This document shows positions 5,632 to 7,336 of a stretch of 64,000 nt of DNA, in pieces; positions within the stretch are counted from its first letter, which is position 1, and each line of letters starts with the position of its first letter. Source of the DNA: Alloscardovia criceti DSM 17774 (lineage in GTDB: Bacteria; Actinomycetota; Actinomycetes; Actinomycetales; Bifidobacteriaceae); contig NZ_AQXR01000011.1 in assembly GCF_000376885.1 (NCBI RefSeq), forward strand, positions 496,001 through 560,000. Direction: 5' to 3'. The position numbers and the translations under genes are program-made. The notes beneath the pieces were generated by a model. It had not been told where the DNA came from. It ran no database searches and saw only the letters and a program-made list of their open reading frames with translations.

Positions 5632-6837
5632 TTAATTGTTGAGTGCATCCGCCTGAGGATGTTCTTCGAGATACTTCATGACGGATTGCACGTCCTTATC
5701 TCCACGGCCGGAGACATTGACGATGATGATCCTGTCTTTGTCCATCTGTGGAGCGCGCTTGATGGCTTCTGCCAGCGCATGTGAGCTTTCGATAGCCGGC
5801 AAAATTCCCTCCGTTTTGGACAAGGTGATCAAGGCGTTGACAGCTTCGTCATCCGTTGCACCTGTGTATTCTACGCGGCCGGAATCCTTAAGGAAGGAGT
5901 GCTCTGGGCCGATGCCTGGATAGTCGAGGCCTGCGGAAATGGAATACACCTCTGCCACATCGCCATTGTCTTTGAAGAGGGCGTAGGTTTTCATACCATC
6001 GATGATGCCGATGGTGCCCTTTTCCAACGTGGCCGCGTGCTGATCGGTATCTAAGCCTTTACCCGTGGCTTCAACGCCGATGAGGTGAACGTCTTCATCC
6101 GCAATGTATTCGCTAAAGGCGCCGATTGCGTTAGATCCGCCACCTACACAGGCGATGACCGCATCGGGCAGACGGCCCCCTTTGTCGAGAATTTGACGGC
6201 GGGATTCTACGGAAATAATTTTTTGGAATTCGTGGACGATGCTTGGATATGGATGTGGACCCACTGCGGAGCCTAATACATAAAAAGCATCTAAATCATT
6301 CATCCATGCGCCGAATGCGGCATCCACCGCATTTTTCAGGGTAGCAGTGCCCTCCTCTACGGCGTGGACGGTGGCTCCCATGAGTTCCATTCTAAATACA
6401 TTGAGTTTTTGGCGTTCGACATCGACTGCGCCCATGTAAATATCGCATTTCATGCCAAATCGTGCTGCTGCTGCGGCCGTTGCTACACCATGCTGGCCTG
6501 CGCCCGTTTCTGCGATAACGCGGGTTTTGCCCATGCGTTTTGCCAGTAGGATTTGACCAAGAACATTATTTAATTTGTGGGAACCTAGATGGTTGAGATC
6601 TTCGCGTTTGAGATAGATTTTTGCGCCGCCGAGGCGATTGCTCAGTGATTCCGCATAATAGAGTGGTGTTTCGCGGCCGGCATAGTCTTTGAGATAGCTA
6701 TGGTATTCTGCGATGAATTCCGGATCATCTTTATACTTATTAAAAACGTTTTCTAGCTCATCGAGCAGCTGTTGAATTGGTTCTGGAACGAAGCTGCCAC
6801 CGAATTGTCCGAAGTATCCATTGTTCTTGTTGTCCAT
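5632..6837 (-). CDS. trpB: Tryptophan synthase beta chain
   Basis: The 401-residue enzyme condenses indole with L-serine to give tryptophan using pyridoxal phosphate. The PLP-binding Lys is K88 in LGSHKLNN, the catalytic Glu lies in AETGAGQHG near residue 110, and the phosphate-binding loop is [10 protein letters not shown]. It is a TrpB1-type sequence of normal length. No trpA, trpC, trpD or trpE is adjacent, so here it forms a one-gene transcription unit. A trp leader peptide and attenuator lie upstream and a two-stage terminator downstream. An isolated trpB could salvage external indole if trpA is absent elsewhere. Confidence 0.97.
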
Positions 6838-6959
6838 TTTTTCGTCTTTCTTTGTTGTTTTGTCACATTTCTTGGGCTGACAAAATACGCCATCGCTTCA
6901 TTGTGCGATCCTTTCGAGTGTGGGACGTCGGTTTTTGTGGATTATTCGCGTGAGAATAC

Positions 6960-6994
6960 AAAAAATCTCATCTAGGTGTATCTAGATGAGATTT
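6960..6994 (-). terminator. trp attenuator terminator (segments D:E)
   Basis: A perfect 13-bp stem (6982-6994 with 6963-6975, arms AAATCTCATCTAG and CTAGATGAGATTT) with a 6-nt loop is followed by six U residues on the minus strand. It lies about 120 nt before the trpB start and about 115 nt after the leader peptide stop, the expected place for an attenuator. Confidence 0.9.
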
Positions 6995-7106
6995 CCGTAA
7001 GGCTACTAAAACTTATGGTGATGTGCGTAGCCGTTGATGAGAAAGGTCTCACATAGATACAAGCTTGTGCATTGAGTTGCATCTATGTGAAAGCACATAC
7101 ATGCAA
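6977..7106 (-). promoter_or_regulatory. trp attenuator alternative-pairing segments A-D
   Basis: Downstream of the leader peptide four mutually exclusive pairings are possible. A (7094-7106) pairs with B (7077-7089) over 13 positions with one mismatch. B (7077-7090) pairs with C (7049-7062) over 14 positions with one G-U. C (7047-7061) pairs with D (6977-6991) over 15 positions with one G-U and one mismatch. D also forms the terminator with E. A ribosome that finishes the leader would cover A, letting B:C and D:E form. A ribosome stalled early at Trp codons leaves A free, giving A:B and the C:D antiterminator. The pairings are read from sequence; the mechanism is inferred. Confidence 0.75.
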
Positions 7107-7107
7107 T

Positions 7108-7185
7108 CTATCCCTGCCAGGTGCGCCAAGCACGCCAGCTACGCCATGCATTGAGTTGCAAAACGTCGTGGGACAGATTACGCAT
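7108..7185 (-). CDS. trpL: trp operon leader peptide
   Basis: This 25-codon open frame is too short for standard gene calling. It begins at ATG 7185, 6 nt after an AAAGGAG ribosome-binding site (7192-7198), and ends at TAG 7108. It encodes MRNLSHDVLQLNA followed by WRSWRAWRTWQG. The four Trp residues at 14, 17, 20 and 23 are spaced every third codon, far above expectation. Its place between the promoter region and a terminator ahead of trpB fits a sensor of charged tRNA-Trp. A second ATG at 7190 is in another frame and gives no Trp cluster. Confidence 0.88.
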   Translation of the reverse strand: MRNLSHDVLQLNAWRSWRAWRTWQG

Positions 7186-7336
7186 GTCATGCTCCTTTCG
7201 TGTTTAAGATTTCAAGCTATTGGTTTGAAGGTAACACACGGCATGAGAAATTGAAATATCGGCGTGTCATATCGTGGACAATCCTGCTTCCGCTAAAAAT
7301 TATCGTATCTTCACTTACAATAAATTTGTATAGTTC

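Follow-up and report, generated by a model that had tools for sequence, protein, structure and literature searches.

The window analysed here, a 64,000-nucleotide (64-kb) stretch of the Alloscardovia criceti genome, carries on its minus strand a tryptophan leader element followed by trpB. The features of the locus, in the direction of transcription, are:

7192..7198, minus strand: ribosome-binding site of the leader, AAAGGAG
7185-7108, minus strand: leader peptide ORF, MRNLSHDVLQLNAWRSWRAWRTWQG and a stop codon; 25 residues, with Trp codons 14, 17, 20 and 23
7170..7194 (about), minus strand: segment Z, spanning the leader's ribosome-binding site and start; partner of the stop/A region at about 7114-7092
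7106-7094, minus strand: segment A, TTGCATGTATGTG, immediately 3' of the leader stop; pairs with B and partly with Z
7092-7077, minus strand: segment B, TTTCACATAGATGCAA; partner of A or C, and equivalent to the left arm of P1 in the Rfam family RF04312
7062-7047, minus strand: segment C, TTGTATCTATGTGAGA; partner of B or D
6996-6977, minus strand: segment D, GGAAATCTCATCTAGATACA; partner of C (antiterminator) or E (terminator)
6975-6961, minus strand: segment E and U run, the 3' arm of an intrinsic terminator (15-pair stem and T run in a terminator scan)
6863..6901, minus strand: second short ORF, between terminator and trpB, kept in three of four Alloscardovia species
5632..6837, minus strand: trpB, an orphan gene; its product, of 401 aa, is a TIGR00263 protein (608.7 bits)

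The locus holds two hallmarks of a leader-peptide attenuator: a short ORF with regulatory codons behind a ribosome-binding site, and an intrinsic terminator ahead of the gene with a mutually exclusive antiterminator. The leader peptide that a first-pass annotation had read here is indeed present, with its four Trp codons and a good ribosome-binding site, and the four pairings described downstream of it are real: A (7106-7094) pairs with B (7089-7077) at 12 of 13 positions; B (7092-7077) and C (7062-7047) form 16 pairs, two of them G-U; C (about 7061-7047) and D (about 6991-6977) are paired at 14 of 15 positions, one as G-U; and D (6996-6982) and E (6975-6961) form 15 pairs running into the U run. 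When each helix was required to have 12 pairs with at most one mismatch and at most two G-U pairs, a chain of four consecutive helices arose in none of 300 dinucleotide shuffles of the post-leader region, the longest shuffled chain being one; at a 10-pair setting the longest was three, reached once. A search upstream on the minus strand gave no match to a sigma-70 promoter.

Two further observations concern the same region. The 14-nt string TGCAACTCAATGCA occurs twice on the minus strand, at 7160-7147 within the leader ORF and at 7081-7068 over B and its loop, and this repeat is not conserved among relatives. The second ORF, MKRWRIL[SV]AQEM with its own ribosome-binding site, keeps its protein sequence through synonymous changes in three Alloscardovia (the window and its equivalents at L003 and L004) and is absent from A. 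omnicolens; its stop codon lies about 25 nt ahead of trpB, and it may therefore couple translation to that gene.

The leader and trpB are found in four of five Alloscardovia genomes (the A. criceti window, A. theropitheci, A. macacae and A. omnicolens), and the segment chain, the leader frame and its AWRSWRAWRTWQG tail recur in the three further species. The C-terminal 12 residues of the leader are identical in all four; over a 13-codon tail, three comparisons with the window give five synonymous codon changes and a single replacement, which falls just ahead of the identical residues. GAAAGGAGC at the leader ribosome-binding site is likewise common to the four species. Covariation among relatives, set beforehand as a test, is seen in A. 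theropitheci: GGGA in C, ACCC in D and GGGT in E change together, and both C:D and D:E are preserved. In A. omnicolens the terminator is shorter and the A:B state weaker.

A search of the family genomes and wider contigs for the Trp-repeat DNA pattern found this leader only in Alloscardovia, the other matches looking like chance, and a scan for Trp-bearing leaders upstream of other Bifidobacteriaceae TrpB gave a convincing one of a single type only. This variant, at L006 (minus strand), L082:1210-1382 and L083, belongs to another genus of the family, with TrpB at 67% identity and no trpA; its leader is shorter (..NTRFWRSWRS before the stop), its antiterminator segment is paired to the region of the Trp codons, and B:C seems to have been lost.

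The regulated gene stands alone: TrpA (PF00290) and IGPS (PF00218), the products of trpA and trpC, were not found in the A. criceti genome (G000, 94.9% complete), nor in G001 or G041, whereas G017 and G029 have both. Because the regulated enzyme is an orphan TrpB, its likely role is to turn salvaged indole into Trp once the supply of Trp is exhausted.

Predicted folding by ribosome position

The strongest early pairing of the leader is one that the first-pass annotation had overlooked: Z pairs with A in a duplex of -30.5 kcal/mol (z -6.1) in the window and of -28.8 to -30.5 kcal/mol in the other three Alloscardovia species (z -5.3 to -6.1 over the four). By complementarity, the chain is one of six segments, in the order Z-A-B-C-D-E, rather than five, and it is predicted to adopt two alternative states: Z:A, B:C and D:E for termination, and A:B and C:D for read-through. 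Because Z:A is the pairing of a sixth segment, the parity is not shifted relative to the E. coli trp leader, as had been thought, but is the same with one pair inserted: the E. coli alternatives 1:2 and 3:4 versus 2:3 correspond to those given above minus that pair. The two leaders are alike in their Trp codons and, in the mechanism proposed below, in the masking of a post-leader segment at the stop codon and in a terminator formed by default; the E. coli leader has four segments with the Trp codons in segment 1, whereas the Alloscardovia leader has six, with the codons between Z and A.

In the mechanism that we propose, the position of the ribosome on the leader would decide between the two states. 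When Trp is plentiful, the ribosome would reach the leader stop and its front would cover A; B would then pair with C and D with E, and transcription would end before trpB. When Trp is scarce, the ribosome would stall at one of the four Trp codons and leave A free; A:B would form once B is made, C would be free to hold D, and with C:D formed the terminator would not arise in time and trpB would be made. In the absence of leader translation, Z:A would sequester A together with the leader ribosome-binding site, leading to B:C, D:E and termination.

We modelled these situations by purely thermodynamic folding in which everything 5' of the ribosome front (assumed 14 nt past the start of the A-site codon) was removed and E was not yet made. 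With the ribosome stalled at a Trp codon, A:B and C:D reach about 0.8-0.9 in three of the four Alloscardovia species and in most other sequences tested, the state being weak in A. omnicolens; with the ribosome at the stop, or with none, B:C prevails in nearly all sequences tested. The earlier claim that ribosome position sets the fold gains support from this folding for the stall, and the outcome is ambiguous for the stop state of the window itself, where B:C before E is 0.28 versus 0.61 for C:D; there, B:C would be expected to form before D is made. In the full RNA, D:E wins on stability wherever the ribosome stands; on this modelling the switch must therefore be kinetic, as in other attenuators. 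Z is left uncovered by a ribosome stalled at the Trp codons, and Z:A could in principle re-form behind it.

An attenuator of five segments and shifted parity, in which Z has no role, is rather unlikely. Segments A to E do pair as that reading describes, and stalled and finished ribosomes would give the same outcome with Z or without it; however, it leaves aside the strongest early pairing in all four species, a pairing that is also present in many members of RF04312, the family considered below (mean z of -2.7, with 58 of 93 sequences below -2).

Relation to the RF04312 motif

RF04312, the "trpB ncRNA motif", was put forward in 2024 as the strong riboswitch candidate SRC-39-1. Its more than 900 members come from Firmicutes and Fusobacteria and lie mostly upstream of an ABC transporter gene and sometimes of trpB; the authors who described it left room for a classic attenuator (PMC11109978). 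At gathering threshold, no Rfam family matched the window; a permissive Rfam search of the leader placed RF04312 over B to E (31 bits, E=0.014 for that search), and the equivalent site of A. theropitheci, at 44 bits and a per-genome E of 5.6e-5, is the best RF04312 match over 189 family genomes. We do not claim formal membership at the Rfam cut-off for the Alloscardovia element because the gathering score of RF04312, 59 bits, is reached by none of the Alloscardovia sequences.

R1 is a covariance model of 30 RF04312 leaders, none of them from Alloscardovia, and reaches from the last Trp codons as far as the terminator. Its top match in the 64-kb window is 6956-7128, at 44.5 bits and E=2.1e-7, the runner-up scoring 11.6 bits; the model also recovers the other three Alloscardovia at 32-56 bits and L006, L082 and L083 at 37 bits. 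Judged by this extended model, which covers the leader end and A to E, the window element is homologous to RF04312. The two are alike in P1 (B:C), in an antiterminator set in the right arm of P1 and in the terminator; they share sequence in A, B and C, and the sequence and spacing of GATAG-TTG-ATGTATG, CATAGATGCAAC and TTGTATCTATG; and trpB lies downstream of both or, in RF04312, an amino-acid ABC transporter gene. They differ in the sequence of the D and E arms, and RF04312 as published has neither a leader peptide nor segments Z and A. The layout had been thought undescribed in Bifidobacteriaceae; its B:C helix and terminator are those of RF04312, whereas the leader peptide, and the occurrence in that family, are not part of the published motif.

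The TrpB proteins point the same way. The window TrpB is 72.7% identical to the TrpB of L139 and L143, from RF04312-bearing genomes of another order, whereas its identity to the stand-alone TrpB found in most of the family is 59-60%, L033, the trp-operon copy of A. omnicolens, among them; a tree of limited root and sampling joins the Alloscardovia TrpB with L139/L143 (support 97/98), apart from L033. Transfer, in either direction, of the orphan trpB together with its attenuator is probably the simplest reading of these comparisons. An independent actinobacterial attenuator of the Corynebacterium/Streptomyces type, resembling RF04312 by convergence, is very improbable. Classical trp attenuators do occur in Actinobacteria, and like the Alloscardovia element they have a Trp leader peptide, an antiterminator and a terminator; but they have GC-rich stems and a conserved gGCC-rGCy-GGCC triple and precede trp operons (PMC1262725), and no GGCC is present in segments B to E of the window. 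Convergence would also have to account for the match to RF04312 members in sequence and spacing, as scored by R1, and for the affinity of TrpB to RF04312-bearing genomes of another order.

In the order to which the Firmicute carrier G434 belongs (it looks like Lactobacillales), 173 of 395 genomes gave an RF04312 match at E<=1e-4, and we read 90 of these matches for upstream leader ORFs; outside this order, one distant member was covered. An ORF that is preceded by a ribosome-binding site, has Trp in its last 10 residues and ends at most about 30 nt from P1 is present in 89 of the 90, typically ending ..WQNWRR or ..WQSWRR. The procedure favours Trp-bearing ORFs, and in dinucleotide-shuffled upstream DNA counted by the same rule a Trp leader ORF appeared in a mean of 1.75 of 90 (maximum 4); at least two Trp occur in 65 of the 90 leaders versus none in the shuffles. 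The sole exception, L208, has a TetR-like gene downstream and is probably not a true RF04312 match. Downstream of the members are 80 related ABC substrate-binding protein genes (PF04392 confirmed in L124, the one tested) and, in five cases (L132, L139, L143, L164 and L194), trpB; in the genomes of these trpB-bearing loci, a TrpA match is absent from four (G692, G760, G908 and G639) and sub-threshold in G617. Over 398 genomes of a Firmicute phylum, with few candidates scored per genome, only two RF04312 matches were obtained.

Segment A is not confined to Alloscardovia. Members with two Trp codons mostly have an A (GTTGTATGTATGA) right after the stop that forms a helix with B, the internal G-G mismatch of the Alloscardovia helix included, and A:B has a mean z of -3.2 (72 of 93 sequences below -2). 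In a model alignment of 45 non-Alloscardovia rows, pairing is 0.96 for A:B, 0.98 for B:C, 0.88 for C:D and 0.95 for D:E, versus at most 0.55 in a slid-register control, and compensatory changes affect 4, 1, 1 and 8 pairs, respectively; the alignment was fitted to a model with A:B and D:E and without B:C or C:D, so that the A:B and D:E figures lean towards structure.

Several members depart from this pattern. Those with a single Trp codon (..RWQSR-like; L126, L166, L179, L188, L191, L195, L200, L205-L207 and L211-L213) have a weaker A:B or none, mostly with no clear A:B hairpin, and probably form a sub-type. At L125:1414-1621, a distant RF04312 match (52 bits; R1 42 bits) ahead of a gene of the sodium:neurotransmitter-symporter family, the leader MNYINNFNLKIQIFFNNHFR has Phe in place of the Trp codons, which in this single case may mark a switch in amino-acid specificity; some 1 kb further upstream, L125:465-556 matches the Rfam pan motif RF01749 above threshold (42.9 bits). 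In alignment A1 (columns 8-18 with 98-108), the last Trp codons of RF04312 leaders (CUGGCGUAG) can in addition pair with the 3' part of C (CUAUGCCGG), giving one more alternative helix.

These leaders bear on the riboswitch reading, in which a small molecule would bind P1 (B:C) and control the terminator and the leader ORF would be incidental. Its case is the conserved P1 and terminator for which RF04312 was proposed as a strong candidate (PMC11109978); we consider it very improbable here, given a Trp-codon ORF with a ribosome-binding site close to P1 in all but one of the members read, the conservation of A and Z, which lie outside the published motif and whose pairings involve B and the leader start, and a P1 that in most cases consists of a plain helix and a variable loop. 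A Trp-specific T-box sensing uncharged tRNA directly, of the kind that controls trpX in the Firmicute Streptococcus suis (PMC9382623), can be practically dismissed, as neither a gathering match in the window nor a match in the permissive leader search was found for the Rfam T-box, and the leader has a translated-looking ORF instead.

We are therefore confident that the Alloscardovia element controls trpB by ribosome-mediated transcription attenuation in response to charged tRNA-Trp and is homologous to RF04312. Because of this homology, RF04312 probably also works as a Trp leader-peptide attenuator, at least in those genomes of lactic-acid-bacteria type that we examined. We lean, with more reserve, towards a broader reading: that all RF04312 RNAs are six-segment leader-peptide relays with codon-switchable specificity, which moved across phyla with orphan trpB as a self-regulated indole-salvage unit. 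In the open-licence literature, we found RF04312 nowhere named as a leader-peptide attenuator (one paper uses the term "trpB motif"), and searches covering in turn Alloscardovia with tryptophan, orphan trpB, and RF04312 returned nothing on the element described here.

Comparison with known attenuators and significance

Among known attenuators, a matching layout is that of the his operon leader of Salmonella and E. coli, which likewise has six segments and regulatory codons in a leader peptide, and whose extra hairpin between pause hairpin and terminator has been argued to lower basal read-through (PMC1183508). The his leader has His codons, occurs in Proteobacteria and is unrelated in sequence to the Alloscardovia element, in which Z spans the ribosome-binding site and start of the leader and the codons lie between Z and A.

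The known Trp devices of Firmicutes are TRAP and T-boxes. The reading proposed here would add leader-peptide attenuation by Trp to that phylum, in which leader peptides have been thought rare (PMC2965389), and it gives a testable identity to the more than 900 RNAs listed as an orphan riboswitch candidate; because RF04312 is probably a leader-peptide attenuator, a search for a ligand may be misdirected. For Alloscardovia, the element would be an instance of attenuation by a two-step relay, probably transferred along with a putative salvage enzyme.
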